Made by a program: the position numbers and the translations under genes | Notes under the pieces: generated by a model | The model's input: only the letters and a program-made list of their open reading frames with translations | Database searches by the model: none | What the model was told of the DNA's origin: nothing | Shown: piece after piece, positions 1 to 22,334 of the stretch | Layout of the letters: every line of letters starts with the position of its first letter | How positions within the stretch are numbered: position 1 is the first letter of the stretch | Source of the DNA: Myxococcota bacterium | Lineage (GTDB): Bacteria > Myxococcota_A > UBA9160 > UBA4427 | Direction of reading: 5' to 3' | Length of the DNA: 35,954 nucleotides | Assembly (NCBI GenBank): GCA_028284295.1 | Contig: JANQSB010000004.1 | Span: 1 to 35,954, forward strand

Positions 1-2980
1 GGCGCGGGCCTCAGCGAGGACGACCTGGGCGACCCCGGTGGCATCGCCGTCACCCGCCTGAGCCCCAGCAGCGGCCACTGGGAGTTCTCCCTCGACGACG
101 GCGGCAGCTGGTCCGACGTCCCGGCGGTCGCGCCCTCGAGCGCCCTGCTGCTGCGCGAGACCGACCGCATCCGCTTCGTGCCCGACGGCGCGGCCGGCGA
201 GATCGCGAGCTTCGAGTTCGCGGCCTGGGACCAGAGCAGCGGCAACCCGGGAACGCTGACGAACGCCCTCCCGGGCGGCGGGACCAGCGCGTTCTCGACC
301 GGCGTCGCGCGCGGCCAGCTCGTGGTCCTCGACGCGAACGACGCACCGATCCTGACTCCGGGCTCGCCCTCGCTCACGTCCATCGACGAGGACGACGTGG
401 ACAACCCGGGAGACCTCGTCTCGAACCTGTTGGGCGGGTCCGTGCGCGACCCCGACGGTGCCTCCACGATGGGCATCGCCATCACCGCCCTCGCCTCCGG
501 CAACGGCACCTGGCAGTTCTCCACCGACGGCGGCGCCGGCTGGAACGACATGGGGAGCGTCTCCCCGGCGACCGCGCTCCTGCTTCGGGGCAGCGACCGG
601 GTGCGCTTCGTCCCCGACGGTGAGAACGCGGACAGCGCCAGCTTCGACTTCCTGGCCTGGGACGGAAGCAGCGGCACGGCCGGGGGCACCGCGAGCACCG
701 GGGTCGTCGGGACGACGACGCCCTTCTCCGTCGCCAGCGATACCGCGAGCATCGACGTCACGGCCGTCAACGACGCCCCCGTCCTCACCCCGAGCGCGCC
801 GGCCCTCACTCCCATCACCGAGGACGACACGAGCAACCCGGGCGACCGGATCGACATCCTGCTCGGCAGCTCGGTCTCCGACGTCGACGCGGGGGATCCG
901 CTGGGCATCGCCATCACCGGACTCGATCCCGGCAACGGCACCTGGCAGTTCTCCATCGACGACGGCGCCACCTGGTCCGACGTGGGCAGCGTCTCGACGA
1001 CGAGCGCACTGCTGCTGAGCGAAGACGACCGGGTCCGGTTCGTCCCCGACGGCCTGAACGCCGACAGCGCCCACTTCGACTTCGTGGCCTGGGACGAGAG
1101 CGTCGGCCTGCCCGGAAACCTGGCCGACGCGACCGCCACGGGCACCACCACCCCGTTCTCCACCGCCAGCGACCGCGCGCGGATCGTCGTCGGCGCCGTC
1201 AACGAGGCGCCGGTCCTGACCCCGTCCGCTCCGGCACTCACCCCGATCACCGAGGACGAGACCGGCAACCCGGGCGACCGCGTCGGCGCCCTGCTGGGGA
1301 CTTCGGTCCGCGACGACGACCTGGGCGACCCGCTCGGCATCGCCATCACCGGACTCGCTTCCGGCAATGGCAGCTGGCAGTTCTCCACCGACGACGGCGC
1401 CAGCTGGTCCGACGTCGGCAGCGCCTCGATCGGGAGCGCCCTGCTCCTTCGGGACACGGACCGGGTGCGCTTCGTCCCCGATGGCGAGAACGCCGACACG
1501 GCCCACTTCGACTTCGTCGCCTGGGACCGGAGCGGTGGCAACGCGGGCCTTCGGGCCGACGCGTCGATCCGGGGGGGCACCTCGCCCTTCTCGAACGCCA
1601 GCGACACCGCTCGGATCGACGTGACCGCGGTGAACGACGCCCCGGTGCTCGACGCGAGCGGCACGATGACCCTGAGCGACGTGCCGGAGTCGACCCCCTC
1701 GCCCGCTGGAGACCCGGTGGCCGCCATCCTGGCGAGCGCCGGGGGCGACCGGGTCACGGACGTCGACAACGGGGACCCGGAGGGCATCGCGGTCATCGGC
1801 GTCGACGACAGCAACGGTTCCTGGCAGTACTCGACCGACGACGGCGTGATGTGGACCGCCTTCGGCACGGTGAGCGACGGCGCCGCGGTGCTGCTCGACG
1901 AGAAGGCGCTCGTGCGCTTCGTCCCGGACGTGGGCTGGTTCGGCAGCTCCGGAGACATCCGCTTCCGGGCCTGGGACCAGAGCAACGGCGCGAGCGGCCA
2001 GACCGGCGTCGATGCATCGGCAAACGGGTCGACGACCGCGTTCAGCGCGGCCACCGAGTCGGCGTCACTCACGGTCACCGCGCGCAACTTCGCACCGGTG
2101 CTGACCCCGTCGGCACCCTCGCTCACCGCGATCGACGAGGACGCGGTCTCGAACCCGGGCGACCGCGTGGGCAGCCTGGTGGCCGGATCGGTCAGCGACC
2201 TCGACCCCCTGTCTCCCGTCGGCATCGCCATCACCGGCCTCGCGAGCGGAAACGGAAGCTGGCAGTTCTCTACCGACGCCGGGGGCAGCTGGACGGACAT
2301 CGGGAACGTCTCCGACCGCAACGCCCTGCTGCTGCGCGACGTCGACCACGTCCGCTTCGTGCCCGACGGCCTGAACGGAGACCGGGCTTCGTTCGACTTC
2401 CGCGCCTGGGACCAGAGCGCCGGCGGTGTGGGTGCCCGGGCCGATGCGTCCGTCGCCGGCGGAGCCGCGGCCTTCTCCATGGCGACCGACACCGCCACGA
2501 TCGACGTGGGCGCCGTCAACGACTCCCCGTCGATCCGGGATGCCAGCCTCGCCAGCGTCTCCTCGGACGACACGGACCCGCCGGGCGCGAGAGTCGGGTC
2601 CCTGTTCCGCGCCGGCTTCTCGGACGTGGACACGGGCGCCCGACTGTCGGGAGTCGCCGTGATCGGGAACGCGGCCGACCCCGCCACCCAGGGCGAGTGG
2701 CAGTACTCGAGCGACGGCGGCACCAGCTGGGCGGCCGTCGGCAGGGTCGGCGACGACGGGTCCGCCCTCGCGCTGTCCCGGGGCACGCTGCTCCGCTTCG
2801 TCCCCGTCTCGAGCTTCGACGGCAGCGTGGCGCTGGACGTCCGGGGCCTCGACGACGCGTATGCGGGAACCTTCTCGGCCACGACCGCCGGCGTGGAGAC
2901 ACGTGCAAACGTCGACGCGTCCGCCCACGGCGGCACGAGCTCCATCTCCGGAAGTGCCGCCTCCCTGGCGACCCTCGTCA
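1..2980 (+). repeat. Tandem ~425-450 bp coding repeats (about six full units plus a partial one)
   Basis: Unit boundaries (VLTPSAPxLTxIxEDD or variants) near 351, 781, 1213, 1645, 2098 and 2520; protein repeat consensus is clear, nucleotide copies have diverged. Confidence 0.85.
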
Positions 2981-3711
2981 CGCCCGGCACGACGATCACC
3001 GACGGAGACCCCAACGATCTCGATCCCGACCCGGAGCCGGATCCGGACCCGGTCGAGGAGCCCGAGCCGGCGGACCCGACGCCCGACGAGCCCGAGACCG
3101 AGCCGCCCGCCGAAGAGCCGGAGACACCGCTCGGCCCGCCGCTCGCGGGCCCCGGCGACGAAGGAGGCGGAACCGTGGATCCGGTGGATCCCTCGGGCCC
3201 GGCCCCGGTGTCCGCGGCGCCTTCCTTCGCTCGGCCGATCATCCCGGGCGACACGGACCCGCGCTTCGACGAGAACGAAGAGGAGCGCGCGACCGCGGCG
3301 ACGCGCACCGCCCTGGACGTGCTGCGGGACGTCTACCTGGGCCGCTCCTCCATCGGCGCCGACACCCTCACCAGCCTCATCTTCAACGGCCAGCGCCTCG
3401 ACTTCATGGGCGAGCTCGACGCCTCCCAGGAGGACCTCCTGGCCCTGAGCCAGCTCGAGACCACGCTCGTCAGCTCGACCGTGGCCGTCACCAGCGGCCT
3501 CTCCGTGGGCTACGTGCTGTGGCTCACCCGCGGCGGGCTGCTGATCGCGAGCCTGCTGACCTCCCTGCCCGCCTGGCGCCTGGTCGACCCGATTCCCATC
3601 CTGGCGCACCTCGGTTCGGACGATGAGGAGGGCGGGCACGGCGACGACTCGCTGGGCTCGATGCTCGAGCGCGAAGACGAGGAACCCGAGCCCGGAACCC
3701 TCCCGACGTGA
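1..3711 (+). CDS. Repeat-rich adhesin/cadherin-like surface protein with C-terminal acidic Pro-rich linker and membrane anchor (5' truncated)
   Basis: Frame is open from base 1 (GAGLSEDDLGDPGGIAVTRL...) through the listed ORF to TGA at 3709-3711. ~140-aa repeats with GIAITGLASGNGSWQFSTDDG, ALLLRDTDRVRFVPDG, FDFxAWDxS and AVNDAPVLTPSAP motifs, then DPDPEPDPDPVEEPEP linker and hydrophobic GYVLWLTRGGLLIASLLTSLPAW. Confidence 0.9.
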   Translation, partial: GAGLSEDDLGDPGGIAVTRLSPSSGHWEFSLDDGGSWSDVPAVAPSSALLLRETDRIRFVPDGAAGEIASFEFAAWDQSSGNPGTLTNALPGGGTSAFSTGVARGQLVVLDANDAPILTPGSPSLTSIDEDDVDNPGDLVSNLLGGSVRDPDGASTMGIAITALASGNGTWQFSTDGGAGWNDMGSVSPATALLLRGSDRVRFVPDGENADSASFDFLAWDGSSGTAGGTASTGVVGTTTPFSVASDTASIDVTAVNDAPVLTPSAPALTPITEDDTSNPGDRIDILLGSSVSDVDAGDPLGIAITGLDPGNGTWQFSIDDGATWSDVGSVSTTSALLLSEDDRVRFVPDGLNADSAHFDFVAWDESVGLPGNLADATATGTTTPFSTASDRARIVVGAVNEAPVLTPSAPALTPITEDETGNPGDRVGALLGTSVRDDDLGDPLGIAITGLASGNGSWQFSTDDGASWSDVGSASIGSALLLRDTDRVRFVPDGENADTAHFDFVAWDRSGGNAGLRADASIRGGTSPFSNASDTARIDVTAVNDAPVLDASGTMTLSDVPESTPSPAGDPVAAILASAGGDRVTDVDNGDPEGIAVIGVDDSNGSWQYSTDDGVMWTAFGTVSDGAAVLLDEKALVRFVPDVGWFGSSGDIRFRAWDQSNGASGQTGVDASANGSTTAFSAATESASLTVTARNFAPVLTPSAPSLTAIDEDAVSNPGDRVGSLVAGSVSDLDPLSPVGIAITGLASGNGSWQFSTDAGGSWTDIGNVSDRNALLLRDVDHVRFVPDGLNGDRASFDFRAWDQSAGGVGARADASVAGGAAAFSMATDTATIDVGAVNDSPSIRDASLASVSSDDTDPPGARVGSLFRAGFSDVDTGARLSGVAVIGNAADPATQGEWQYSSDGGTSWAAVGRVGDDGSALALSRGTLLRFVPVSSFDGSVALDVRGLDDAYAGTFSATTAGVETRANVDASAHGGTSSISGSAASLATLVTPGTTITDGDPNDLDPDPEPDPDPVEEPEPADPTPDEPETEPPAEEPETPLGPPLAGPGDEGGGTVDPVDPSGPAPVSAAPSFARPIIPGDTDPRFDENEEERATAATRTALDVLRDVYLGRSSIGADTLTSLIFNGQRLDFMGELDASQEDLLALSQLETTLVSSTVAVTSGLSVGYVLWLTRGGLLIASLLTSLPAWRLVDPIPILAHLGSDDEEGGHGDDSLGSMLEREDEEPEPGTLPT

Positions 3712-6215
3712 CCTTCTTCAACGCCAAGACGCACATCGCCCTGGGACAGACCTTCCTGGTGGTGACCCTGTTGCTGGCTGCCCTGGCGGCGGGTCTCGTC
3801 CCGGACCGGGAGCGCGCCCAACGCGAGGGCCGCGCCGCACTCGCCGAGGCCCTGGCCATCACGGGCTCGGCGCTGGTCACCCAGGCCGAGCTTCGGCGCC
3901 TCCAGGCGACCCTCGGGCTCGTGGTCGAGCGCAACGACGATCTGCTGTCGGCCGGGGTCCGTCGCACCGACGGCCGCGTGATCGTCTCGGTCGCGGACCA
4001 CGTGGCACGCTGGGTGCCCGATCCCGAGACCTACTCCACTCCCTCCCAGCTGAAGGTGCCGATCTGGTCCCACGGCCAGCGCTGGGGCCAGGTGGAGCTG
4101 CGCTTCCGTCCCCTGTCGCCGCCCGGAATGTGGGCCTGGCTCCACGACCCGCGCCTCCAGCTGATCGGCGGGATCGCGCTGCTCTCCTTCGTGGCCTTCT
4201 ACTTCTATCTCGGGAAGATGCTCCAGCACCTGGACCCGTCCCAGGCGGTGCCGCAGCACGTGCGGTCGGCACTCGACACCCTGGCCGAAGGACTGGTCGT
4301 GATGGACACGCGGGAGCGCATCGTGCTCGCCAACCAGGCCATCGCGGCCATCGTGGGGCGCAGTCCGGAGCAGCTGATGGGGCGCCGCGTCTCCGAGCTG
4401 AACTGGGTGAACGCCGACGGAAGCTCCTTCGCCGAGGAGGAGTACCCCTGGCGGCTGGCCCTTCGCGACGGCGAGACGCGCTCGAACGACATCGTGCTGC
4501 TGCGCGATGCCGAGGACCAGCTGCGGACCTTCATCGTGAACGCCGCCCCGGTGCTCGGCGCGCGCGACAAGGCCGGTGGCGTGCTCGTCAGTCTCGACGA
4601 CGTCACGGCGCTCGAGGAGCACAAGGCCGAGCTGTCCTTTGCCAAGGAGCAGGCCGAGGCCGCCAACCAGGCCAAGAGCCAGTTCCTCGCGAGCATGAGC
4701 CACGAGATCCGGACGCCGATGAACGCGATCCTCGGCTTCACCGAGGTGCTGAAGCGCGGCTACGTGACCGACGAGCAGGACCGCAACAAGTACCTGGAGA
4801 CCATCCGTTCCAGCGGCGAGCACCTCCTGCAGCTGATCAACGACGTGCTCGACCTCTCGAAGGTCGAATCGGGTCACATGGAGCTCGAGCAGATGCGCTT
4901 CGCGCCCCACGCCGTCGTCCGCGAGGCGGTGACCGTCCTGTCGGGCAAGACCCAGGAGAAGGGGATCACGCTCGACTTCGAGATCCAGGGCCGGGTGCCC
5001 GAGACGGTGCTCGCCGACCCGACCCGTTTCCGGCAGATCGTGACCAACCTGCTCTCGAACGCCATCAAGTTCACCGACCAGGGCGGTGTGAAGGTCGTGC
5101 TCGGACTGACGGATGCCCGGGGCGCTTCGCGTCTGGTACTGCGGGTGAAGGACTCGGGCATCGGCCTCGAGGAGGACGCCTACGAGTCGATCTTCGACGA
5201 GTTCGTCCAGGCCGACAGCTCGGTCACGCGACGCTTCGGCGGTACGGGACTCGGTCTGCCCATCAGCCGTCGCCTCGCTCGCATGATGGGGGGTGACATC
5301 ACCGTGAAGAGCGCGCTCGGCAAGGGCAGCGCCTTCACGGTGAGCATCGATCCGGGTCCCCTCGATGGGATCGCGATGCTCACTCCGGAAGAGGCCCTCG
5401 ACCAGGCCCAGCCCCGGTCGAGCGAGAGTCGCGACGGCTGGGACCTGCCGTCGGCCCGCATCCTGGTCGTCGACGATGGCGAGGAGAACCGGGACCTGTT
5501 GCGCGTGGTGCTCGGCGACCTCGGGCTCGAGGTCGAAGGCGCCGAGAACGGGCAGGTCGGCGTCGAGAAGGCCCGCAGCGGCAGCTTCGACGTGGTGCTG
5601 ATGGACATGCAGATGCCGGTGATGGACGGGTACACGGCCACCTCGACCCTCCGCGGCGAGGGCTACGAGGGACCCATCGTCGCGCTCACCGCCAACGCCA
5701 TGAAGGGCTTCGAACGCGAGTGCCTGGAGGCCGGCTGCAGCCACTACCTCACCAAGCCCATCGACATCGATGCCCTCACCGAGACTCTGGCCGGCCTGCT
5801 CGGGGGCTCACGGCGACGTGGCGAAGCCAGACCGGCCGCCCCCGGGCCGGAGCGCCCGGCGACCCCCCGGAACGCGATGCCTGCCAGCGAGCCGATCGTC
5901 TCGTCCCTGGCCGCCAAGGGGGAGCCCTTCCTGGGCATCATCCGGAAGTTCGCGGGCCGCCTCGGCGAGAAGCTCGACGAGATGGACGGCAGCTTCCTGG
6001 CGCGCGACGGCGACGCGCTCGCGGCAGGCGCGCACTGGCTGAAGGGCTCGGCGGGGACCGTGGGCTTCGCCGAATTCCACGAGCCCGCCCTGGCCCTCGA
6101 ATCCTTCGCCCGCGACGGCAAGTGGAGCGAGGCCGAAGCCGCGCTCGAGCGGATCCGGTCGCTGGCCGAGCGGATCGAGCTGCCCGGCGCACCGCCGGCA
6201 GGGAGTGCGGGATGA
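3708..6215 (+). CDS. Hybrid sensor histidine kinase (N-terminal membrane/sensor region, PAS, HisKA, HATPase_c, REC, Hpt)
   Basis: GTG start overlaps upstream TGA (GTGA). [20 protein letters not shown]-box, [12 protein letters not shown]-box, [20 protein letters not shown]-box, [18 protein letters not shown]-terminal Hpt [13 protein letters not shown]. Confidence 0.95.
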
Positions 6216-8011
6216 CGGCCGCGAACCGCGCCGACAACCCGATCTCTCTCGTCACGAACGGCAACGCCGATTCGCAGACCCCGTTCAGCACGGCGACGAT
6301 CATGATGGTGGACGACGAGCCGACCACCATCGAGATCCTCGAGATGTTCCTCCGCAGCGAGGGCTACGAGCGCTTCGTCCACACCAGCGACCCGACCGAG
6401 GCCATCGGCCTCGCGCGGAACGCGCGACCCGACGTGCTGCTCCTGGACGTGATGATGCCCGAGGTGAGCGGGCTCGAGCTGCTCCAGACGATCCGCAACG
6501 ACGAAGACCTGCAGTACCTGCCCGTGATCATCCTGACCTCGGCGACCGAGCCGGAGACCAAGCTGCAGGCCCTGGAGCTCGGGGCCACGGACCTGCTGGC
6601 CAAGCCCGTCGATCCGAGCGAGCTCTCACTGCGCCTGCGCAACACCCTCGCGGCGAAGACCTACCAGGACCGCCTGGCCTACTACGACCGGCTGACCGGG
6701 CTTCCCAACCGCAGGCTCTTCACGGACCGCCTCGAGCGAACCCTGCAGCGGGCCCGCAGCCGCGAGATCGACTGCGCGCTGCTGCACCTGAACCTGGACC
6801 GCTTCAAGAAGGTGAACGACGCCCTGGGCCACCACGTGGGCGACGCCCTGCTGCAGGCGGTCGCCGCCCGGATCGAGCAGAGCATCCGCCCCGGGGACTT
6901 CGTCGGCGTGCCCGAGCTGCCGGAGATCCACGACCCGCTCTCGCGGGTGGGCGGCGACGAGTTCTCCGTCCTGCTGCCCGGCGCGGGCTCCGTCGAGGGA
7001 GCCTCGCGGGCCGCCGCACGCCTGCTCGAGAGCCTGGCCGACCCCTTCCAGGTCGAGGAGCACGAGCTCTTCGTCAACGCGAGTGTCGGCATCGCCCTCT
7101 TCCCGACCGACGGCGAGGACATCACCACCTTGATGGCCAACGCGGACACCGCCATGTCGCACGCGAAGAAGCGCGGGCGGAACTGCTTCCAGTTCTACGA
7201 GGCGTCGCAGAACTCGGAATCCGCCAAGCGGCTGAACCTCGAGAGCCAGCTGCACCGGGCCATCGACCGCAAGGAGCTCGTGCTCCACTACCAGCCCAAG
7301 GCCGACGTGGCGACGGATCGCATCACCGGGGTCGAGGCCCTGATGCGCTGGGATCACCCCGAGCTCGGCCTCGTGGGGCCCGACCAGTTCATTCCCATCG
7401 CCGAGGAGACGGGTCTGATCACCGCCCTGGGCGAGTGGGCGCTGCGCACGGCCTGCGAGCAGAACCGCGCCTGGCAGGAGGCCGGACTCGAGCCGATCTC
7501 GATCGCCGTGAACGTCTCGGCCAAGCAGTTCGAGAACGAGGCCTTCGTCGACGTCATCCAGCGCGCGCTGCAGCAGAGCGGCATGGACCCCAGGCACCTG
7601 ATCCTGGAGCTGACCGAGAGCGTCATCATGGCCAACCCGACCCAGACGGCCACCATGCTCGACGCCATCAAGGCGATGGGAGCCCGGACCTCGGTCGACG
7701 ACTTCGGGACCGGCTACTCCTCGCTCTCCAGTCTCAGCCGCTTTCCCATCGACGAGCTCAAGATCGACCAGTCCTTCGTCTCGAACCTGCCCGGCGACGA
7801 GAACGACGCCGCCATCGCCAACGCCATCGTCCTGATGGGACACAGCCTGGGGTTGACGGTCGTTGCCGAGGGCGTGGAGACGGTCGAGCAGCTGGCCTTC
7901 CTGGCGGGGCGGGCCTGCGACACCTACCAGGGCTACCTGCGCTGCAAGCCCATTCCGCCCGAAGCGCTCGAGAAGCTGCTCCAGACCGAGGCCGCCAAGA
8001 CCCGGCGGTAG
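6212..8011 (+). CDS. Response regulator with GGDEF and EAL domains (c-di-GMP metabolism)
   Basis: ATG overlaps HK stop (ATGA). REC VLLLDVMMPEVSGLELL, intact RVGGDEF, EAL motif GVEALMRW and DDFGTGYSSLSSL. Confidence 0.95.
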   Translation: MTAANRADNPISLVTNGNADSQTPFSTATIMMVDDEPTTIEILEMFLRSEGYERFVHTSDPTEAIGLARNARPDVLLLDVMMPEVSGLELLQTIRNDEDLQYLPVIILTSATEPETKLQALELGATDLLAKPVDPSELSLRLRNTLAAKTYQDRLAYYDRLTGLPNRRLFTDRLERTLQRARSREIDCALLHLNLDRFKKVNDALGHHVGDALLQAVAARIEQSIRPGDFVGVPELPEIHDPLSRVGGDEFSVLLPGAGSVEGASRAAARLLESLADPFQVEEHELFVNASVGIALFPTDGEDITTLMANADTAMSHAKKRGRNCFQFYEASQNSESAKRLNLESQLHRAIDRKELVLHYQPKADVATDRITGVEALMRWDHPELGLVGPDQFIPIAEETGLITALGEWALRTACEQNRAWQEAGLEPISIAVNVSAKQFENEAFVDVIQRALQQSGMDPRHLILELTESVIMANPTQTATMLDAIKAMGARTSVDDFGTGYSSLSSLSRFPIDELKIDQSFVSNLPGDENDAAIANAIVLMGHSLGLTVVAEGVETVEQLAFLAGRACDTYQGYLRCKPIPPEALEKLLQTEAAKTRR

Positions 8012-8066
8012 TCCCCGACTTGTCCCTCCCGCCGCGGCGCCTAGTCTCGGACCGAGGGGGCAGCCA

Positions 8067-9095
8067 TTGCGCTTCGACTCCGTTCTCGCGTCCGTCGTCG
8101 GCATCGGCCTGGCCGCGACCGCTTGCGGCGATCCCGATCTGAGCGACCAGCTCAGTGGATACGGGCAGGCGATCGAGGCGATCCTCGCGCGCGAGCCGGC
8201 GCCGGTGGACGCGGACGATACGCGCGGGATGCAGCTGCCCACGCGTCGCGAGCGCCGGATCGACGTGCCCGACCACCGGATGGGGGGCATGGACTTCCTT
8301 GCCATCCAGGGCTGCCGCCTCTCGCAGCTGGTCGGCAGCCGCAACGGACCCATGGGCCGCGTGATGGTCCCCAGCCGCCGCCTGGTCTACGAGCTGGAGG
8401 TGCTCGAAGCCGCCGACGAGTGCCTCGAAGGGCTCTCCGACGGCCGGGCGGCTCGACTGGGCGGGACCCTGGCCGCGAAGCGGGCAGAGCTTCCCGCGCA
8501 CCTGTGGAACGCGGTCTGGATGGGCGAGGAGATCGAGGGCTACCTGTCTTCGATGACGGGGCCGATGGCGCTGCTGTCGTCCGACGATGGCCAGGCCGGT
8601 CTCGACGGCGCGGTGGCCGTGCTCGAGCGACCGCTCGAGAGCGCCCAGGACGCTCTCGAGCTGGAAGCGGCGCTGGCGGAGCTGCGAAGCGAGCATGCCT
8701 TCGGCCCCATGCTGGGGAGCCTGCATCTCGTCCGGCGCACGCTGAACCGCGTCGCCGATCTCCTCGAGACGAGCCCGCCGACCGGGTGCCGAGGCGACGC
8801 CGTCCGCCTGGCGTCCGCCTTCGAGACCCACTACCTGAGGCTGCAGGCTCCGCTCGCAACCCTCGATCGCCGCGTGCACGCACGCCTCGAGGCACTCGAC
8901 CGCCTGTTCGACGCATCTTCCGCGGGTGTGACCGGGGTGCCCGATGCCATGTCGCGCTACGCGACCGAGCAGCTGAGCCCGCGGCACCCGACGGGTGCCT
9001 GGGCGCGCTACCGCGAGGCCGTAAGGCGGCACGCCCAGGCCTGGGAGCCGACCCTCGTCTTGTGCGGTGTGCTTCCGGATGCGGAGGCCGCGTGA
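8067..9095 (+). CDS. DUF3080-like lipoprotein
   Basis: TTG start after GA-rich RBS; signal LRFDSVLASVVGIGLAATAC with lipobox; LPTRRERRIDVPDHRMGGMDFLAIQGCRLSQLVGSRNGPMGRVMVPSRRLVYELE resembles DUF3080 proteins as remembered. Confidence 0.75.
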   Translation: MRFDSVLASVVGIGLAATACGDPDLSDQLSGYGQAIEAILAREPAPVDADDTRGMQLPTRRERRIDVPDHRMGGMDFLAIQGCRLSQLVGSRNGPMGRVMVPSRRLVYELEVLEAADECLEGLSDGRAARLGGTLAAKRAELPAHLWNAVWMGEEIEGYLSSMTGPMALLSSDDGQAGLDGAVAVLERPLESAQDALELEAALAELRSEHAFGPMLGSLHLVRRTLNRVADLLETSPPTGCRGDAVRLASAFETHYLRLQAPLATLDRRVHARLEALDRLFDASSAGVTGVPDAMSRYATEQLSPRHPTGAWARYREAVRRHAQAWEPTLVLCGVLPDAEAA

Positions 9096-9739
9096 GCCCG
9101 CACGACGCCGACGACCCCGGCAGGCATCCGGACGGGAGCTACGGCGACGGCTACTACGACGTCCACCCGCGAATCGCCATCGACCGCCCCCTGGCCCTGG
9201 TGGGCCATCCCGGCTCCGACGTCGACCAGGTGGGACGCATCCTGTGCGGCCGCAGCGGGCTGGTCTTCAGCGACGTCGAGCGCGCGGCCGAGTCCCAGGC
9301 CGGCTGCTCGCGAGCGAGAGTGGTCCTCGAGCAGGGTGTCCAGGCTCTTCGGGAGATCGAGGCCGAAGCGCTGCACCGCGCGGTGCGGCGCCGTCCCCAT
9401 GGCGTGATCGTCCTCGAGAGCAGCCTGATGACGCTTCCCGCACGGCGTGAGTGGTTGCTCGAGCGTGCATGCCTGGTCTACGTCCGGCGGGACCCGGAGA
9501 GCCTGCTCGCGCGCATTCGCCGGCGATTGCGGGACACACCCGGAAGCCTGCCCGAGTTCCTGGTCGGCGCTCCAACCGACGTCGAGGCGCTGCGCGACTT
9601 CCTGCGCGACCGGGACCAGGCCATGGAGGAGATCCCGCGCGTCGTCGAGGCACGCGACGAGCACCCCGCCCGCATCGCGGGGGAGATCCTCGACTCACTG
9701 GACCGGCTGCTGGGCGTGGAGCCGGCGCCCGGTTCATGA
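9092..9739 (+). CDS. Shikimate kinase-like protein with degenerate P-loop (probable pseudokinase)
   Basis: GTG overlaps upstream TGA (GTGA). LALVGHPGSDVDQVGRILCGRSGLVFSDVERAAE aligns with the shikimate kinase N-terminus but lacks GK[S/T]; RACLVYVRRDPESLLARIRRR resembles the SK C-terminal half. Confidence 0.65.
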   Translation: MSPHDADDPGRHPDGSYGDGYYDVHPRIAIDRPLALVGHPGSDVDQVGRILCGRSGLVFSDVERAAESQAGCSRARVVLEQGVQALREIEAEALHRAVRRRPHGVIVLESSLMTLPARREWLLERACLVYVRRDPESLLARIRRRLRDTPGSLPEFLVGAPTDVEALRDFLRDRDQAMEEIPRVVEARDEHPARIAGEILDSLDRLLGVEPAPGS

Positions 9740-10557
9740 GAAGAGCCGCCGAAGCAGCGCTCGCCTGCCTCGTCCTCGTCGCGAGCCCGTCACCGGTCGG
9801 AGCGAGCGCCACGGGAGCCGTCGAGACCGGCGCTCTGGCTCGAGGGGACCGCGCGTGGCAGGACCGAGCCGCGTCGATCGACGAGGACCTCGCCAGGCCC
9901 GATCGGATCGAGGAAGCCGTCGGGGCCTACGGCGAGGCCGCCGCGAGCGACGCCACGAGCATCGAGGCCCGCTGGAAGCTGCTGCGTGCACTGCACTTCC
10001 TCGTGGACTTCACCCACGCGGACGAAGCCCGGAAGGAGCAGGCCCTCGCGCAGGCCGTCGCGATCGCCCGCAACGGGGTCCCGCCAGACGACGAGGGCAA
10101 GTCGGCGGGGGATCGCGCGCAGCTGCACTTCTGGACCGCGATCGTCTGGGGTGTGCGGGGACAGCGGGTCGGCCTGCTGACGATCGTCCGAGAAGGCGTT
10201 GCCAGCCGGATTCGCGAGCACGCCGAGCACGCCGCCGCCCTCGACCCGACGATCGAGCGCGGCGGGGCCTGGCGCCTGCTCTCGAGACTCCACGGCGGAC
10301 TGCCCCGGGTGCCCTTCGTCTCGGGCTGGGTCGACCGCGAGCGAACCCTTCCGCTGGCCGAGCGCGCCCTGGCGGTCGATTCCGAAGACCCGGGAAATCG
10401 ACTGGTGCTCGCCATGGCGCTGCTCGAGCGCGCGCCCGACCGGTCGGCCGAGGCACGGGAGATGCTGGAGATCGTCTCGCAGCTCGTGCCGCGACAGAGC
10501 CTGCTCGTCGAGGACCTGGCGATCCGAGAGCAGGCGCGCGAGCTTCTCGGCCGCTGA
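9736..10557 (+). CDS. Secreted TPR protein, TRAP-transporter T-component (TatT)-like
   Basis: ATG overlaps upstream TGA (ATGA); signal peptide MRRAAEAALACLVLVASPSPVGASA; TPR-like helices; ERGGAWRLLSRLHGGLPRVPF...LPLAERALAVDSEDPGNRLVLAMALLE resembles TatT. Confidence 0.55.
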   Translation: MRRAAEAALACLVLVASPSPVGASATGAVETGALARGDRAWQDRAASIDEDLARPDRIEEAVGAYGEAAASDATSIEARWKLLRALHFLVDFTHADEARKEQALAQAVAIARNGVPPDDEGKSAGDRAQLHFWTAIVWGVRGQRVGLLTIVREGVASRIREHAEHAAALDPTIERGGAWRLLSRLHGGLPRVPFVSGWVDRERTLPLAERALAVDSEDPGNRLVLAMALLERAPDRSAEAREMLEIVSQLVPRQSLLVEDLAIREQARELLGR

Positions 10558-10720: not shown

Positions 10721-12457
10721 TTGGCGCGCGAACCGTCCCTGCGCGAGCTGCTGTCCGGAGAGAAGCCGGGACCCGAGGCCGTCGCCTTCTGCGAGTGGAT
10801 GGAGTCCCTGGACTGGGACTTCCGGGCCGCAGCCGAGGCCCGCCGCACCGAGCCCCGCCTGCTGTATCGCGAGTGGCTCGCGGGGCTGAACTGGAATCAG
10901 TCGCTGGCGGCCCGGATCTACCGCAAGCCCGGCTCCAGGAAGCGTGGCGTCACACGCCAGGCCATCGACGCGCAGATGCGCTCGCTGGGCGTGACCCGGC
11001 CTCTCGACCTGCGCAAGCAGCTCGGCGAGCAGGACCTCGAAGGCGCGCTGGACGCCATGGAGCAGGCCCAGCGGGAGATCGAGTCGCGCACCTCGACCGC
11101 GCGCCTCGCGGGCGAGCAGCTGCTGGCACTGGCCGAGACCTACCGGCGAATGGGAGACGTCGCCGCGGCGCGACGGACCCTCGACGAGCTCGTCAAGCTC
11201 GCGCGCCGCAGCGAATCGGTCGAGCTCGCGGGCCGCGCCATGCGCGCCCTGCCCTACCTGCTCTTCCAGGCGGCTGCCTACGGCCACGAGGACCGCGAGC
11301 TCATCGACACCCTGGAGGCCTGGTCCGTCGGACTGCGCGAGTCGGGCGATCTCGATGCCCTCGTCCTGTGCCTCGCACGCCTGGGCTTCGAGCTGTACGG
11401 CATCAACCGCGACGGCTCGCGCGATCGCGCCCAGCAGCTCACCAAGGAGGCCTTCGAGCTGGCCCGGGGCCCCGTCGCTCCACGCACGCGCAGCATCGTC
11501 CACGCCTGCCGGATCGTGGCCCTGAGCGACCCCGACCACCTGGACGAGCGACTTCGGATCCTGGAGCCCGTGCTCGAGGAGTCGCGCCAGCTCCCGGCCG
11601 ACGACCGCTTCTTCGCCCTCGACATGCTCCTCACCGACCTCCTCGAGGCGGCGCGAGTCGACGAGCTGCCGGCAGTGCTCGAGGAGATGCGCGCGCTCGA
11701 GGACCGCTGCAGCGCGCCGTGGCCCCAGCGCTATCGGGCCACCCTCGCCATCCTGCGCGGCGACTTCGAGGAGGCCGAGCGACTGGCCGTCCTGCCGCCG
11801 ACCATGCCGCTCGCGTCCGCCGCCCAGGTCCGGGGCCTGCAGCAGTACGAGGCCCTCAAGCTGCGCGGCGAATGGGAGAACCTCTCCGGGCTGGTGCGCT
11901 GGAACGCCAATCAACAGCCGGAGTTCATCGGCTACCGCTTCTGTCTCGCTCAGCTCGCCTGCCTGATGGGACGGACCGAAGGCGTCGACGACGAGCTCGA
12001 CCGCTGGGCCGACCAGGGCTTCGCCTGCGTGCCCACCGACTTCCTGCGCGTCCCGAACCTCTGCATCCTCGCCGAGGTGGCGCACACCCTGGATCGACCG
12101 GACCACGCCGAGGCCCTGCACGCCCTGCTATCGCCCTTCGCCGAGCGCGTCTCGCTCGTTCGCGTGACCGCCTCGATCCAGGGGGCCGTCGCGCGCTACG
12201 TCGCCCTGCTCGAGTGCACCCTCGAGCGCTGGGACGAGGCCGAGTCCCACTTCCGCCAGGCCTGCGCGACCCACGAGGCGCTGCGCGCGCGCCCGTATAC
12301 CGCATGGACCCTGTACGACCACGGCCGCATGCTGGTCGAGACCGGGCGCGATCCGGGCCGCGGTCAGGACCTGGCGCGGATGGCGTCCGGCGAGGCCGCC
12401 GCCGTCGGGATGGGCTGGCTGGTGGAGCGCTCGCGTCAGCTGATCCAGCGCGCCTGA
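10721..12457 (+). CDS. TPR-domain cytoplasmic protein
   Basis: TTG start with AGGAGA upstream; all-helical protein with TPR-like repeats and a C-terminus resembling MalT/LuxR-type TPR regions (AWTLYDHGRMLVETG). Confidence 0.65.
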   Translation: MAREPSLRELLSGEKPGPEAVAFCEWMESLDWDFRAAAEARRTEPRLLYREWLAGLNWNQSLAARIYRKPGSRKRGVTRQAIDAQMRSLGVTRPLDLRKQLGEQDLEGALDAMEQAQREIESRTSTARLAGEQLLALAETYRRMGDVAAARRTLDELVKLARRSESVELAGRAMRALPYLLFQAAAYGHEDRELIDTLEAWSVGLRESGDLDALVLCLARLGFELYGINRDGSRDRAQQLTKEAFELARGPVAPRTRSIVHACRIVALSDPDHLDERLRILEPVLEESRQLPADDRFFALDMLLTDLLEAARVDELPAVLEEMRALEDRCSAPWPQRYRATLAILRGDFEEAERLAVLPPTMPLASAAQVRGLQQYEALKLRGEWENLSGLVRWNANQQPEFIGYRFCLAQLACLMGRTEGVDDELDRWADQGFACVPTDFLRVPNLCILAEVAHTLDRPDHAEALHALLSPFAERVSLVRVTASIQGAVARYVALLECTLERWDEAESHFRQACATHEALRARPYTAWTLYDHGRMLVETGRDPGRGQDLARMASGEAAAVGMGWLVERSRQLIQRA

Positions 12458-12503: not shown

Positions 12504-12551
12504 TGAAATTGTCGTTTGACGACGCGGGGTTCCGCTCCATACGTTGCCGCC

Positions 12552-15500
12552 ATGACGAGCCGGCAACGCTTCTTCCTCGCGAGCGCCCTGGCGGCGCTGA
12601 CCCTGGGAATCGTCGGATCCCTCTCGCCCGCGGGCGCGCGTACCGACACCTACGCCTACGACGAGGCCGGGCGCCTCGTCGAGGCCCGCCTCGGCGAGAT
12701 GGTGGTCACCTACAGCTGGGATCCGGCCGGGAACCTGCTGACGCGAACGGTGCCCGAGCCGGGCGCCGGGACCATCGCCGCAGCGGCCCTGCTCGCGATG
12801 GGCTTCCTGCGGCGCCGCTCCGCACGCGGGCTTCGAGCGCGCTCGCAGCGAGGCGCTCGCGCCCCCCTGGTCCTCGTGCTGGCCGTCGCCGGGCTCGGCT
12901 CCGCGACCACCGCACGCGCCCAGTGCGACCCCATCGACCCGCCGCTACCCAGCACGAACATCGCCGTCGAGACCGGGGACGGCAGCAAGGTGCGGGTCCA
13001 GTGCGACGAGTTGTGCACGCTCACCGCCAGCGTCTCGCCGGACCCGGGGCCGGTCAGCATCTCGCCGGAGATGGTCGACCTGGGTCCGGGCGTACCCTTC
13101 GACTTCCTGCTGCTGGCCGACGCCGATGCGACGGACGGCGACACCGTGTCGGTCTTCATCCAGTACTCCTGCCCGGGTGGCGGGAGCTCGTTCGACTACC
13201 GCGCCTACATCCAGGCCATCGACAACCAGACCATCGAGAGCAAGGGCGGCGGCACCGACGCCGACCCGGTGAGCACGCGCAACGGCGAGCTCTTCAAGGA
13301 GCTCTCTCCGGATCTTGACCTCGGCGGTCCCCTGCCTCTGCGCTTTCAGCGCTACTACGCGTCGAACCTCCTGACGGACGCGCGCACCGACAGCCGCCTC
13401 GGGGACAACTGGCTGCACAACTTCCGCTGGGAGCTACGAGCGCGCTCCCGCGACGCGGTCCTCACGACGCCGGTCGGGCGCACCGTACGCTTCCTCAAGC
13501 AGGGGGACGACTGGGTGCTGATCGGCCCGACGGCCATCCCCTTCCAGCTGGCCGACAACGACGCGACCAACGGCACCACCCTGTACGACCCCCGGACCGC
13601 GCTCTTCTACGAGTTCAGCATCGGCGACGTCCTGCTGAGCGTGAGGGATGGAAACGGCAACACCCATACCCTCGGATACTCGCTTCCGGGTCCCGGCCAG
13701 CTCCAGCTCGACAGCGTGAGCGACGGTCTGGGCCGCACCCTCAGCTTCACGTACACGAGCGGTCTGATGAAGAGCGTCAGCGACGGCAACCGCACCGTGC
13801 TCTTCGACCACAGCGGAAACGACCTCAGCTCGGTCACGGACGCGACGGGCCAGACGACGCTCTACGCGTACGATAGCGGCGCGCTGCTCGTCAGCGAGAC
13901 GCGTCCGGAGGGCAACGTGCCCTTCTCACAGACCTGGTCGACGGGGGGCGGCGGTGCTTCGTCCGGTGGCAGCGGCGCGGGCATCGTCACCGGCCTCTCG
14001 CAGGTGATGACCCAGACCGACGCCGACGGCAACAGCGTCGGCTTCGCCTATGCGGCCCCCTCGACGACCATCACCGACGTCCTCGGAAGCCGCACACACT
14101 TGCACGACGCGGCCGGAGAGCTCACCCAGAGCACCGACCGGACAGGAGAGAGCGTCTCGATCGAGCTCGACGACGACGGCCGGCGCAGCGACGTGACCGA
14201 CCGCTTCGGCGACACCACGAGCACCGCCTACGACGCGGTCGGCGGAGCCCCCGAGACCATCACCCACGCCGACGGAACGGAGTCGCATCTGGCCTACACC
14301 AGCCGCACGGTGGGTTCCCTGACGGCACGCGACCTCACCACCGTCACCAACACGGACGGCACCACGGAGACCCTCGGCTACGACGCCGATGGCAACCGCA
14401 ACTCGCGAACGGACCCGGCTGGCAACGTCTCGACCACCACCTACGACGGCAACGGCCGGACCCTGACGGCCACGAATCCCGAGACGGGCACCACCACCAT
14501 GGCGTACGACGGCGCCGCCAACCCGATCTCCCACACCGACCCGGCCGGAAACACCACCACCATCGACTACGACGCGATGCTGCGCCCGGAGCTCGTCACC
14601 TACGAGGACACGGAGACGGTCGGCCTGGGCTACGACGCCAACGACAACGTGACCAGCCGGACCGACGAGCGCGGCAACATCACCACCGTCGACTACGACG
14701 ACAACGGCAATCCCGGCACGCTCACCGATCCGCAGGGAAGCGTGAGCTACGGCTACGACGGCAACGACCGGGCCACGAGCCGCACGGACCGCACCGGCCG
14801 CACGATGAGCGTCGCCTACGACGCCACGGGTCGGCTCGCTTCGAGTACCGACGAGGGCAACAACACCACGACCTTCGACTACGACGCCCGGGGACGCCTG
14901 TCCCAGGTGACGCAGCCGGAAGGCAACGGGGTCGGACTCCAGTACGACGCCGAGGGCCTCCTCGCCATACTCACCGACGGCCGCGGCGAGTCCCTCTCCT
15001 TGAGCCGCGACGCCATGGGCCGCGCCACCCAGCTGACCACGCCCCGGGGCGACCCCTGGCGCATCGACTACGACCTGATGGGTCGGCCGAGCCTGTACGA
15101 GGACCCGGAAGGTGGGGAGACCACGGTGGCGCGCGACCCCAACGGAGCGGTCAGCGCCATCATGCTGCCCGGGGGCACCGTGACGGGCCAGTACGAGTAC
15201 GACGGCCTCGGCAATCTCGACCGGGTCTGGGACCCGAACGGCCAGCCCTGGGAACGGGCCCACGACACGTCGGGACGCCCCGTCTCGCGAACCGACCCCC
15301 TGGGCCAGACCACGACCATCGACTACGACGAGCGCAACCGGGTCTCCGGCTTCACCTTCGCGGGTTCCCTGGGGAGCCTGCAGATCGCCCGGGACGAGGC
15401 CGGCAACCCTACGGCCGTCAGTGGCTCGGACGGCACGGCCATGACCATGGGCTACGACAGCGCCGGGCGCGCCACATCGGGTACCGGGCTCTCGCTCTCC

Positions 15501-16961
15501 CGGGACGCCGAGGGTCGCGTCACCGACAGCAACGGCATCGGGGTGACCTACAACAGCGCCGGCCTGCCCGAGACGATGACCCTGGCGCCGGGCGTGACCG
15601 TCACCTACGGCTACGACGCGAACGGACGGCCCACCACGGTGGACGACTCGTTCGGCAACGGCGTCATCCTGAGCTATGACGGCGACGGGAACCTCGCGTC
15701 GATCGTCCGCTCCAACGGCACCACCACCACCTACAGCTACGACGAGGACGGAAAGCTCATCGGCATCGACGAGGGCAGCTTCGGCGACACCTGGCTGACA
15801 CGAGACGCGCTCGGGCGGGTCACCGGGGTCGAGCGCACCGGCATCGGCGACGACATGCTGCCCCTGGACGGCATCTCCCAGGGCTTCGACGACGCGTCGC
15901 AGGTGGAGGGCGCCGGGTACGACGAGCTGGGGCGCATGGTCGAGGACGGGTCGGACAGCTACGACTGGAGCCTGGGCGGCCCCCTCTGGAGCCACACCCG
16001 CGACGGCGAGACCACCGACTCCGAGTACGACGCCTTCGGCAACCGCACCTCGAGGACGCGCGGCGGTGAGACCCGCGACTACGTCTGGAACTACGCGCTG
16101 GACCTCTCCGGCCTTTCCATCGAGCGGGACGGAGGCGAGGACCAGCGCTACTGGGTCCACCTCACGCTCGGGCACCTGCTCTACCGAATCGACCCCGAGA
16201 CGGGCGCGCCCACCTTCTATCACTTCAACGAGTCGGGCGATACGACCTTCCTGACGGACGGCATGGGCAACCAGGTGGCCCAGTACCGCTACTCGCCCTT
16301 CGGACGCATCGACCGGGGGGAGGGGCAGGACGAGCCCTTCACCTACCGCGGCCAGTTCGGCGGCTTCGAGGACTCCCCGGGGCTGCACCTGATTCCGCGA
16401 TTCGGCTGGTACGACTCGGACCGCCAGCGATACATGGAGCGTCAGCCGGACGCCATGCGCCCGAATCACGTGAACCCCTACGACTTCTTCGGCAACAACC
16501 CGTTCCGCCTGCCGACCGGGCTGCCGCGCGTGCCTCCGATCGGAACCGTCCCCAGCGTGCCGGAGCTGATCGACCGGGCGAGCGGGCCCCAGGTCGACCG
16601 CACGACGGACCGCGCGGAGCGCCGGCTGACCTTCGCCGCGCAGGACCTCGGCTCGATCTTCCTGGACGAGTTCGAGGACGGGCCCCTCGACGGCCTTCCC
16701 TTCAACCCGAACGGTCTCGGCAGCGAGCTCGACCTCACCGAAGAGGAGGCCGAGGCCGCCCTGACGCGGCTCTCGCGGGACCTGCTGCTGCTGGCCGCGG
16801 CGCTCCAACGCAGCATTCCCTTCGAGTTCTTCTCGGACAGCGACGCGACGAACCAGTTCCCGCTGGGACCGCTGAATCACCGCGAGGCACCGAACAAGCC
16901 CGAGCTGGCCGAGCCCAGGCCCGGCAAGGCCCCCTCCCTGCGACTGCGCACCTCCTTCTAG
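12552..16961 (+). CDS. Secreted RHS/YD-repeat protein with DUF6531-like N-terminal region
   Basis: Signal peptide; DPVSTRNGELFKELSPDLDLGGPLPLRFQRYY; many YDxxGNxxxxTDPxGN YD repeats; RHS-core-like terminus YSPFGRIDR...RYMERQPDAMRPNHVNPYDFFGNNP. Confidence 0.92.
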   Translation: MTSRQRFFLASALAALTLGIVGSLSPAGARTDTYAYDEAGRLVEARLGEMVVTYSWDPAGNLLTRTVPEPGAGTIAAAALLAMGFLRRRSARGLRARSQRGARAPLVLVLAVAGLGSATTARAQCDPIDPPLPSTNIAVETGDGSKVRVQCDELCTLTASVSPDPGPVSISPEMVDLGPGVPFDFLLLADADATDGDTVSVFIQYSCPGGGSSFDYRAYIQAIDNQTIESKGGGTDADPVSTRNGELFKELSPDLDLGGPLPLRFQRYYASNLLTDARTDSRLGDNWLHNFRWELRARSRDAVLTTPVGRTVRFLKQGDDWVLIGPTAIPFQLADNDATNGTTLYDPRTALFYEFSIGDVLLSVRDGNGNTHTLGYSLPGPGQLQLDSVSDGLGRTLSFTYTSGLMKSVSDGNRTVLFDHSGNDLSSVTDATGQTTLYAYDSGALLVSETRPEGNVPFSQTWSTGGGGASSGGSGAGIVTGLSQVMTQTDADGNSVGFAYAAPSTTITDVLGSRTHLHDAAGELTQSTDRTGESVSIELDDDGRRSDVTDRFGDTTSTAYDAVGGAPETITHADGTESHLAYTSRTVGSLTARDLTTVTNTDGTTETLGYDADGNRNSRTDPAGNVSTTTYDGNGRTLTATNPETGTTTMAYDGAANPISHTDPAGNTTTIDYDAMLRPELVTYEDTETVGLGYDANDNVTSRTDERGNITTVDYDDNGNPGTLTDPQGSVSYGYDGNDRATSRTDRTGRTMSVAYDATGRLASSTDEGNNTTTFDYDARGRLSQVTQPEGNGVGLQYDAEGLLAILTDGRGESLSLSRDAMGRATQLTTPRGDPWRIDYDLMGRPSLYEDPEGGETTVARDPNGAVSAIMLPGGTVTGQYEYDGLGNLDRVWDPNGQPWERAHDTSGRPVSRTDPLGQTTTIDYDERNRVSGFTFAGSLGSLQIARDEAGNPTAVSGSDGTAMTMGYDSAGRATSGTGLSLSRDAEGRVTDSNGIGVTYNSAGLPETMTLAPGVTVTYGYDANGRPTTVDDSFGNGVILSYDGDGNLASIVRSNGTTTTYSYDEDGKLIGIDEGSFGDTWLTRDALGRVTGVERTGIGDDMLPLDGISQGFDDASQVEGAGYDELGRMVEDGSDSYDWSLGGPLWSHTRDGETTDSEYDAFGNRTSRTRGGETRDYVWNYALDLSGLSIERDGGEDQRYWVHLTLGHLLYRIDPETGAPTFYHFNESGDTTFLTDGMGNQVAQYRYSPFGRIDRGEGQDEPFTYRGQFGGFEDSPGLHLIPRFGWYDSDRQRYMERQPDAMRPNHVNPYDFFGNNPFRLPTGLPRVPPIGTVPSVPELIDRASGPQVDRTTDRAERRLTFAAQDLGSIFLDEFEDGPLDGLPFNPNGLGSELDLTEEEAEAALTRLSRDLLLLAAALQRSIPFEFFSDSDATNQFPLGPLNHREAPNKPELAEPRPGKAPSLRLRTSF

Positions 16962-17793: not shown

Positions 17794-18975
17794 TCACATC
17801 GCGAAGAAGGGCCAGTCGGGCTCGAGGCCGAAGAGGATCTGACCGACCGCTTCCAGACGCGCCTCGGCCACGAAGGCGTGCTGGCTGATCACGTGGACGT
17901 CGCGGAAGTAGCGCGGAAAGCGCTGCTCCTCACGGATTCCGGCGGTGCCGACGCAGGAGTGGACGAGATCGACCGCCTCGACCGCCGACAGCACCGCGTG
18001 GGAGCTGGCCTGCTGGCAGCGCGCCTTCTCCTCCATGTCGAGGGGGCGCTCGTGCGCGATCTCCCACGCCTCTCCGTACGCCTCGTGAAATAAGGCCCGT
18101 GCGGCCCGGAGGGTGGCGTCGGCGCGTGCCAGCCGTAGCTGGGCGCGGTGCCGATTGCGCAGCGTGTTCCCGGTGTAGGCGGGCACGCGCGCGCCGAGCT
18201 CGCGCAGCTCGTCGACGGCCGCCCGGGCGATGCCCAGCGCCACCGTGGCGTGACACGCCACGGTCGTCCAGACCACGAGTCGCGAGAGCGGGCCTTCGTA
18301 GGCGGGAGCCGGCTGCTCGAGCGGCCCGAAGGGCGCCGTGCGCTCGGAGGGAACGAAGACGTCCTCCATCTGCAGGTCGTGGCTGCCGGTGCCGCACATC
18401 CCCATGGTGTTCCAGTTGGGCAGGATCTCGCAGTCGCCGATCGGTGCGAGCATCAGCAGCACCTCGGGAAGCCCCTCGGCATCGACACGCGGGGTGTCGC
18501 CGTCGTACACGTCCGCCAGTCCGATCGTCCAGGTGGAGCCGTGGCAGTTGCTGTTGAAGGGCGTGCGTCCGGTCACGCGGAAGCCGCCCTCCACCGCGAC
18601 GGCGCGGCGGTGGGGGTTGAAGGCGCCGCTGACGACGGCATCGGGTGCGCCGTAGGCCTCGGCGCTCACCGCGTCCGCGAAGAAGCCCCCGTACAGCTCG
18701 CTGGCGTTGCTGACCTGAACGTTCCAGGCCGCCGCACTGTCGATTCGAGCCAGCTCTTCGGCCACGCTGAGCTCGGCGACCGGATCGAGACCCAGGCCGC
18801 CCCGTGTGACCGGGCGGAGCATCCGGTAGAAGCCCGCATCTCGCAGTGCCTCGTGCACCTCGGGCGCGAGCCGCTTCCTCCGCTCGGATTCGTCCGCGTA
18901 CTCGCAGATCAGCGGCGCGAGTCGCGCCAGTGCGTCCCGGAGCCCTTCGTCGGGGGTCGTCGTTGCCGTCGCCAT
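17794..18975 (-). CDS. Acyl-CoA dehydrogenase-family / flavin-dependent monooxygenase-like protein
   Basis: ATG at 18975; GFYRMLRPVTRGGLGLDP, SAAAWNVQVSNASE, VSGAFNPHRRAVAVEGGFRVTGRTPFNSNCHGSTW, GTGSHDLQMEDVFVP and C-terminal HVISQHAFV are family-like. Confidence 0.85.
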   Translation of the reverse strand: MATATTTPDEGLRDALARLAPLICEYADESERRKRLAPEVHEALRDAGFYRMLRPVTRGGLGLDPVAELSVAEELARIDSAAAWNVQVSNASELYGGFFADAVSAEAYGAPDAVVSGAFNPHRRAVAVEGGFRVTGRTPFNSNCHGSTWTIGLADVYDGDTPRVDAEGLPEVLLMLAPIGDCEILPNWNTMGMCGTGSHDLQMEDVFVPSERTAPFGPLEQPAPAYEGPLSRLVVWTTVACHATVALGIARAAVDELRELGARVPAYTGNTLRNRHRAQLRLARADATLRAARALFHEAYGEAWEIAHERPLDMEEKARCQQASSHAVLSAVEAVDLVHSCVGTAGIREEQRFPRYFRDVHVISQHAFVAEARLEAVGQILFGLEPDWPFFAM

Positions 18976-19084
18976 GCCCGGTGTCCTCCTGTGGTGTCGA
19001 GAGGATTGTCGGCGGCGGCGACGCGTGACACAATGCCAAGAATCCGAACGATCCTGCCAGCCCCGTTGCAAGCGAGGTCTCCGC

Positions 19085-20125
19085 GTGCCCGAGTACAAGA
19101 TCCCGACGCCCCGACTCCCTGCCCCCGGCGCTCCGCGACGCCGGGTCGTCGTCGTCACCAGCGCCCATGCGCGGTCGCTCGAGTACATGGGACCGCTGCA
19201 GGTCTTCGACGAGGCCCGGATCTTCCTGCAGTACGCGGGCCGCCTGGATCTGGCCTACGACCTCGAAGTCGTCAGCATCGGGGAGGGCTCGGTCTATGAC
19301 CGCAAGGGACTCACGATCGAGGCCGGCAAGCCCTACCACCGCCTGCGGGGCCCGGTGGACACCCTCCTCTTCCAGGGCGCCGACGAGCACGATCTGTGCC
19401 TCCAGGACGAACGCTTCCTGGCCTGGGTGGCGCGGATGTCCACGCGGGTGCGACGGATCGTGAGCATCTGCACCGGCTCGTTCATCCTGGCCGAGGCGGG
19501 CGTTCTCGACGGCCGGCGCGCCACCACCCACTGGTGTGCGAGCGACGACTTCCGCCGCCGCTACCCGAAGGTGACCCTCGAGCCCGACGCCATCTACGTG
19601 AAGGACGGGCACGTCTACACCTCGGCCGGGGCCACCTCGGGGATGGACCTGGCGATCGCTCTCGTCGAGGAGGACTACGGCACCGACTTCGCTCGCCGGG
19701 TCGCCCAGGGTCTCGTGATGTTCCTGCGACGCCCCGGAAACCAGTCGCAGTTCAGCGTGCAGGTGGCCACCGACCCGACCGACGGAGCCGCCCTGGAGGA
19801 CGTCGCCCGCCACATCTTCGATCATCTGGGCGACGACCTGCGCGTCGAAGCGCTGGCCGAGCACTTCGGCATGAGCCCGCGCAACTTCGCCCGGGTCTTC
19901 CGCCGCGAAGTGGGCGTCGCACCCGGCCGCTACGTCGAGCAGTGCCGCCTCGAGCGTGCCCGGCAGTACCTGGAGGAGACGGACGCCTCCATGAGCGAAA
20001 TCGCCGAGCGCTGTGGCTACACGACCGCGGATGGTCTGCGCCTGGCCTTCGAGCGCAACCTCGGCGCGTCTCCGCGCTCGTACCGCAAGCGCTTCACTTC
20101 GGCCGACCCGACCCTTTCCGCCTAG
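19085..20125 (+). CDS. GlxA-like AraC-family transcriptional regulator (DJ-1/PfpI-type domain plus HTH)
   Basis: SICTGSFILAEAGVLDGRRATTHW (GATase1-like), C-terminal AraC HTH MSEIAERCGYTTADGLRLAFERNLGASPRSYRKRF. Confidence 0.92.
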   Translation: MPEYKIPTPRLPAPGAPRRRVVVVTSAHARSLEYMGPLQVFDEARIFLQYAGRLDLAYDLEVVSIGEGSVYDRKGLTIEAGKPYHRLRGPVDTLLFQGADEHDLCLQDERFLAWVARMSTRVRRIVSICTGSFILAEAGVLDGRRATTHWCASDDFRRRYPKVTLEPDAIYVKDGHVYTSAGATSGMDLAIALVEEDYGTDFARRVAQGLVMFLRRPGNQSQFSVQVATDPTDGAALEDVARHIFDHLGDDLRVEALAEHFGMSPRNFARVFRREVGVAPGRYVEQCRLERARQYLEETDASMSEIAERCGYTTADGLRLAFERNLGASPRSYRKRFTSADPTLSA

Positions 20126-20159
20126 GGGCCAACGCTCGGAGCAGGGAATCTGCTGCCGA

Positions 20160-20702: not shown

Positions 20703-20705
20703 CGC

Positions 20706-21032: not shown

Positions 21033-21128
21033 GTTCGAAACCTCTCTTTTCTCTTTTCTCTCTACTGTCCTCTACCGTCGGCGACCGGTCCGCGACGGGA
21101 CCGGAGTGCCGGCGACTGGACGCCTTTC

Positions 21129-22166: not shown

Positions 22167-22334
22167 CCCGAGAGACTAACCTGCCGAGCGTCGTCGCGGG
22201 AAGCGAATGCCCGGGCGCGACCGGCGGCCGCTGCCGACCGGCCTCGGCGTCGGTGTCGCGTCCTGGTGTCACGACGACGCCGGTCTTCCGCTAGCGTCCT
22301 CCGTCGAGACATCCTGCAACCCGGAGGTCGCCCC

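Follow-up and report, generated by a model that had tools for sequence, protein, structure and literature searches.

A predicted periplasmic sensor kinase is partnered with a repeat-adhesin C-terminus and a c-di-GMP enzyme in an apparently undescribed, widespread bacterial module

How bacteria sense the engagement of a surface adhesin and convert it into c-di-GMP signalling is a long-standing question, and in known circuits such as Lap the direction runs from c-di-GMP to the adhesin, opposite to that proposed in this study. The locus analysed here, in which an adhesin gene overlaps the gene of a hybrid histidine kinase followed by that of a c-di-GMP enzyme, raises this question. The window, the whole stretch of DNA that was analysed, is the entire contig G000:C103 (35,954 bp) of a draft genome of 718 contigs that is 90% complete. 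Mis-binning of the contig was considered, but the window kinase is 70% identical across its length to that of a same-family genome, so the contig is not obviously mis-binned. The earlier note on this DNA had joined the first six ORFs into one envelope-sensing operon. The ORF list and a direct read of the junctions confirmed the presence of all six ORFs and of the five junctions between them, with the following features:

1–3711, + strand: adhesin ORF 1, with cadherin-like repeats (Cadherin_4, Pfam); 5′ end cut by the contig end
3319–3708, + strand: conserved adhesin C-terminal anchor, a long helix leading into one TM helix GLSVGYVLWLTRGGLLIASLLTSLPAWRLVDPIPIL, then an acidic tail and an SLxSM-type motif (A1/A3 alignments)
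3708–6215, + strand: hybrid histidine kinase, TM-sensor-TM-PAS-HisKA-HATPase-REC-Hpt (Pfam)
3708–4247, + strand: sensor region (SENS), two TM helices flanking a periplasmic PAS/Cache-like domain (60-sequence alignment A2)
6212–8011, + strand: response regulator REC-GGDEF-EAL (Pfam), both catalytic motifs intact in the window copy
8067–9095, + strand: DUF3080 lipoprotein (PF11279), TTG start; module B
9092–9739, + strand: pseudo-shikimate-kinase (PF01202, 51 bits); module B
9736–10557, + strand: TPR-like protein, with a weak match to the BstC-like NCBIfam model NF045602 (32 bits, below cut-off) and TPR_19 also below cut-off

Four junctions are stop/start overlaps (GTGA at 3708, ATGA at 6212, GTGA at 9092 and ATGA at 9736), and the fifth is a 55-nt gap at 8012–8066. 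Stop/start overlaps are normal in operons and are alone no proof of shared function. The overlapping or close junctions would favour a single six-gene envelope-sensing system, in which the DUF3080 lipoprotein, the pseudokinase and the TPR protein serve as accessories, but the gene neighbourhoods of relatives do not agree with such a system. DUF3080 was detected in the window protein at 155 bits, against a curated cut-off of 26.5, and profile search identified it in nine genomes of the order, including that of the window. The pseudokinase gene directly follows it in four of the eight other genomes and lies approximately 4–8 kb away in three more (g12 genomes); a DUF3080 lipoprotein followed by a pseudo-shikimate-kinase is thus a recurrent pair in the order (window 8067–9739; L034–L037 and L039–L041). 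In no relative with the adhesin–kinase module was DUF3080 or the pseudokinase found near the adhesin–kinase pair, this arrangement being confined to the window, and in G074, which has both modules, they are on different contigs. This neighbourhood comparison, named by the earlier note as its own refutation test, did not bear out the two proteins as members of the system, and gene 6, to which nothing at the loci of other genomes is homologous, gained no neighbourhood support as a member of either module. Genes 1–3 are therefore one module (A), and genes 4–5 are a separate module (B) placed downstream of module A in the window genome; the single six-gene system, set aside because of these neighbourhoods and largely refuted, is in our estimate highly improbable. 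The description of gene 5 as a pseudokinase was upheld: neither the window protein nor any of its seven aligned relatives (alignment of eight) has the Lys of the shikimate kinase Walker-A motif, GxxGxGK(S/T), and the family keeps an N-terminal YY-x-x-x-PR motif.

Based on a scan seeded with the adhesin C-terminus only (A1), with one genome per species, we identified 79 loci in Proteobacteria, Desulfobacterota, Myxococcota, Nitrospirota and Planctomycetota. The first same-strand downstream protein carries the same sensor region in 63 of these loci, with a median gap between adhesin and sensor of 8 nt (≤150 nt in 61 of the 63). Among the 16 loci lacking an adjacent sensor, L063 is cut by a contig end, and the isolate that it comes from also contributed L073; the remaining fifteen unpaired adhesins come from fifteen genomes, and the sensor is encoded elsewhere in 14 of them. 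Such orphan adhesins, which have this C-terminus but no kinase beside them (L053, L054, L066, L073, L080, L087, L088, and other loci of Granulosicoccaceae and Gammaproteobacteria), sometimes number several in one genome, where they appear to share a sensor whose gene lies at another site. Named isolates with the module include Marinobacter sp. 2_MG-2023, Desulfosarcina alkanivorans and Aquincola tertiaricarbonis. We found no description of module A in the open-licence literature, although a subscription paper could exist, and this widespread bacterial module is apparently undescribed.

The partnership was also seen at closer range. Six further genomes of the order have full-length orthologues of the window kinase, 57–70% identical, and a seventh has a fragment; the adhesin C-terminus was immediately upstream in all seven. 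REC-GGDEF-EAL was downstream in all six order relatives not cut by a contig end, in some cases with extra Hpt and REC units in between. At the class level, 91 genomes were searched independently with the adhesin-C and sensor-kinase profiles, strong matches being those above 100 and 230 bits, respectively. Strong matches to the two profiles fell in exactly the same nine genomes, and were always adjacent; random assignment would give such a nine-for-nine match approximately once in 8×10¹¹, a value that is only indicative since the genomes are related. The weaker sensor matches of the class represent a second, GGDEF-fused subtype (described below), which some of the weaker adhesin-C matches accompany. 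The distances of adhesin-C and sensor were correlated (Mantel r 0.65, with none of 2000 permutations as high), a correlation that shared descent alone could produce. This correlation is one of co-inheritance, and does not separate the adhesin as input of the kinase from the adhesin as its output.

The adhesin C-terminus, for which no Pfam or NCBIfam model was matched, was modelled by AlphaFold2 as a single continuous helix of 71 residues spanning the hydrophobic stretch, with pLDDT above 90 over most of residues 31–80 and low confidence for the acidic tail that follows. The window adhesin is thus predicted to end in one long helix entering the membrane, with an acidic tail. Full-length relatives with the same C-terminus carry DUF4347 (PF14252) at the N-terminus, alongside a LEPR-XLL motif in L099; this LEPR-XLL/DUF4347 N-terminus is not in the window adhesin ORF, whose 5′ end lies off the contig.

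Next in the module, the kinase start is supported because the sensor sequences of relatives align with it. The sensor was modelled by AlphaFold2 as TM-PAS/Cache-like-TM, with a pLDDT of 90, and its best Foldseek matches are mostly periplasmic or extracellular PAS/Cache sensors, including the LapD orthologue CdgS9 (4u64), all at E>0.01. Assignment of the sensor to a recognised Pfam domain was dropped, as kinase residues 1–183 gave no Pfam match and the fold similarity is weak. As for the cytoplasmic relay, the HisKA His and the N-box Asn are conserved in 61 of 61 aligned kinase homologues, the REC Asp in all 56 kinases reaching it and the Hpt His in 55 of these 56. The window kinase itself has the HisKA His, the N-box of the ATPase, the REC Asp and the Hpt His that mark a hybrid phosphorelay kinase. 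As judged from these alignments, it carries every residue of a predicted His-Asp-His relay, and its partner regulator has a receiver Asp of its own.

An alignment of 44 regulators showed no variation at the receiver Asp or at any of the eight EAL catalytic residues, and the catalytic set E-N-E-D-D-K-E-Q is complete in the window regulator. The GGDEF signature is intact in the window copy and in 25 of the 44, but degenerate in the remaining 19. Nine of the 63 sensor-paired loci have contigs that end too early, leaving 54 with room downstream, and a c-di-GMP enzyme is next in line or fused in 52 of these. They comprise 43 REC-GGDEF-EAL proteins, three REC-HD-GYP proteins occupying the same slot in Planctomycetes (L098, L106 and L113), and a remainder made up of REC-GGDEF forms that are truncated, masked or frameshifted, and of a single protein in which the sensor is fused directly to PAS-GGDEF. 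Two loci (L070 and L076) have no c-di-GMP enzyme despite the room. Because EAL is invariant, GGDEF is intact in only 25 of 44 and HD-GYP occurs in the same slot, the conserved output of the kinase subtype is probably c-di-GMP hydrolysis, with GGDEF optional. The earlier reading of an envelope-sensing module is thus supported for genes 1–3, of which the adhesin C-terminus and sensor stay adjacent across five phyla and the c-di-GMP enzyme is present in 52 of 54 loci with room, but not for the genes that follow. At two loci, a sensor-PAS-GGDEF-EAL type protein, as read from BLAST domain matches, adjoins the adhesin–kinase–regulator genes (L059, on the minus strand at +5329 to +8439 relative to the adhesin match; L069, at +4992 to +8039).

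A patchy distribution, in nine of 91 class genomes, might be expected if the adhesin, kinase and export genes formed a mobile surface-trait island linked passively and without direct functional coupling. We consider such passive linkage improbable, as the order and spacing of the genes are tight across phyla, adhesin and sensor co-occur even when unlinked, and one c-di-GMP enzyme type replaces another in the same slot.

The same sensor is also fused to PAS-GGDEF in approximately ten further proteins of the class, most of which are located with HlyD adaptors, a SecA paralogue, an M50-HlyD protein and DUF4347 adhesins. This second subtype was noted at L130–L139, L140–L148 and L117. The domain content of this subtype suggests c-di-GMP synthesis, so that the sign of the output would differ between the two subtypes. 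Because the sensor accompanies the adhesin locus with kinase and cyclase alike, it would appear to read something about the adhesin pathway, and this is the best evidence for such a role.

Beside LEPR-XLL/DUF4347 adhesins, the export set consists of a short SecA paralogue (SecA_DEAD, PP_bind, P-loop), the M50-HlyD protein and HlyD adaptors, and was observed at L056, L061, L062, L067, L068, L096, L102, L105, L110, L141–L147, L165 and L167. At least one of the three was present in approximately 22 of the 79 loci, as counted in the flanking sequence analysed, where a good number of contigs break off within the repeats of the adhesin. In G041, G038 and G031, the export genes and a DUF4347 adhesin are divergent, with the export genes upstream and the adhesin running beyond the contig end. 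The window genome has two M50-HlyD copies (G000:C272, 1841–3970, and G000:C283, 1–1716), and G000:C283, which ends in an adaptor gene, may be the missing piece upstream of the left end of the window. This gene set, including a SecA paralogue, is brought to light by the present analysis.

Taken together, we think it reasonably probable that genes 1–3 make up the signalling half of an adhesin locus that is conserved, and in which the tethered adhesin is read by the kinase sensor and the relay sets c-di-GMP degradation. The adhesin would be exported by the HlyD/M50-HlyD/SecA-paralogue apparatus and would stay tethered in the inner membrane through its C-terminal helix, so that its membrane-proximal stalk could contact the kinase sensor. 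Kinase activity would then respond to attachment, to tension or to the status of secretion, and the relay would set c-di-GMP degradation accordingly, so that adhesion would be brought into line with the choice between sessile and motile life. That the kinase senses the adhesin directly is likewise inferred. The wider proposal, of a new class of envelope system in which SecA-paralogue/M50-HlyD export delivers a LEPR-XLL adhesin that stays tethered, and a PAS-like sensor reads the tether and drives c-di-GMP hydrolysis (kinase) or synthesis (GGDEF-fused), is put forward tentatively. If true, the PAS-like sensor would be a direct outside-in sensor of an adhesin.

In the main alternative, the adhesin is an output: the kinase would sense another periplasmic cue (a ligand, a cation or the envelope state), c-di-GMP would control adhesin expression, export or release, and the adhesin C-terminus would be only an anchor or export signal. 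The fold matches of the sensor are mostly PAS/Cache, folds that commonly bind small ligands, and co-transcription fits control of the adhesin. There is also a precedent in LapD, the periplasmic domain of which has a PAS-related fold and works inside-out (PMC3032553). Against this stands the observation that it is the sensor region itself, and not simply some kinase or other, that tracks the adhesin C-terminus, and that this tracking holds in the GGDEF-fused subtype and where sensor and adhesin are unlinked. We therefore regard the adhesin as output as rather unlikely, and retain the adhesin as input of the kinase sensor as the preferred reading. As the module is widespread, is present in named isolates and names two domains expected to touch, outside-in adhesin signalling becomes directly testable.

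The nearest known system is Lap (LapA-LapD-LapG, with Bpf in Shewanella and a large-adhesin circuit in Vibrio cholerae), which resembles module A in having a giant repeat adhesin under c-di-GMP control and in the match of the module A sensor to the LapD orthologue noted above, which is among its top fold matches although at E>0.01. Lap works inside-out, in that its c-di-GMP receptor, which has GGDEF-EAL domains, keeps a periplasmic protease sequestered, and LapD is a single chain, TM-output domain-HAMP-GGDEF-EAL. In module A, by contrast, the sensor belongs to a full phosphorelay kinase (PAS-HisKA-HATPase-REC-Hpt), whose target is predicted to be an active c-di-GMP hydrolase; the EAL domain, with its full catalytic set, is in a second protein together with REC, and the adhesin has a predicted membrane helix at its C-terminus. 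LapA also has an N-terminal retention module with a LapG cleavage site; the corresponding end of the window adhesin lies off the contig, and the relatives of module A that were read carry DUF4347 there, with a LEPR motif in L099. A LapG-type protease (PF06035) was found neither in the window genome, a 90% complete draft, nor in seven of the eight other class genomes with the pair. G041 was the one genome, of the nine in the class that have the module, in which PF06035 was detected, and PF06035 was above cut-off in two of five others. With no LapG found in this draft, identity with the Lap system was rejected.

Module A loci also resemble type I secretion of RTX/LapA-like adhesins in having HlyD-type adaptors beside giant repeat adhesins, but in the loci read their export genes include the SecA paralogue and the M50-HlyD protein, and the adhesin C-terminus is a predicted TM helix with an acidic tail. 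Systems in which a hybrid kinase (REC-Hpt) acts with REC-GGDEF-EAL or REC-HD-GYP share with module A the layout of domains and the conservation of the phosphorelay residues; module A differs from these in its sensor, which matches no Pfam model and is strictly partnered with one adhesin type.

Further along the window, an RHS/YD-repeat protein with DUF6531 (12516–16961) lies directly 3′ of a TPR protein (10721–12457), and a DJ-1/PfpI-AraC type regulator (18974–20125) adjoins a Laminin_G_3-containing ORF (20013–23288).
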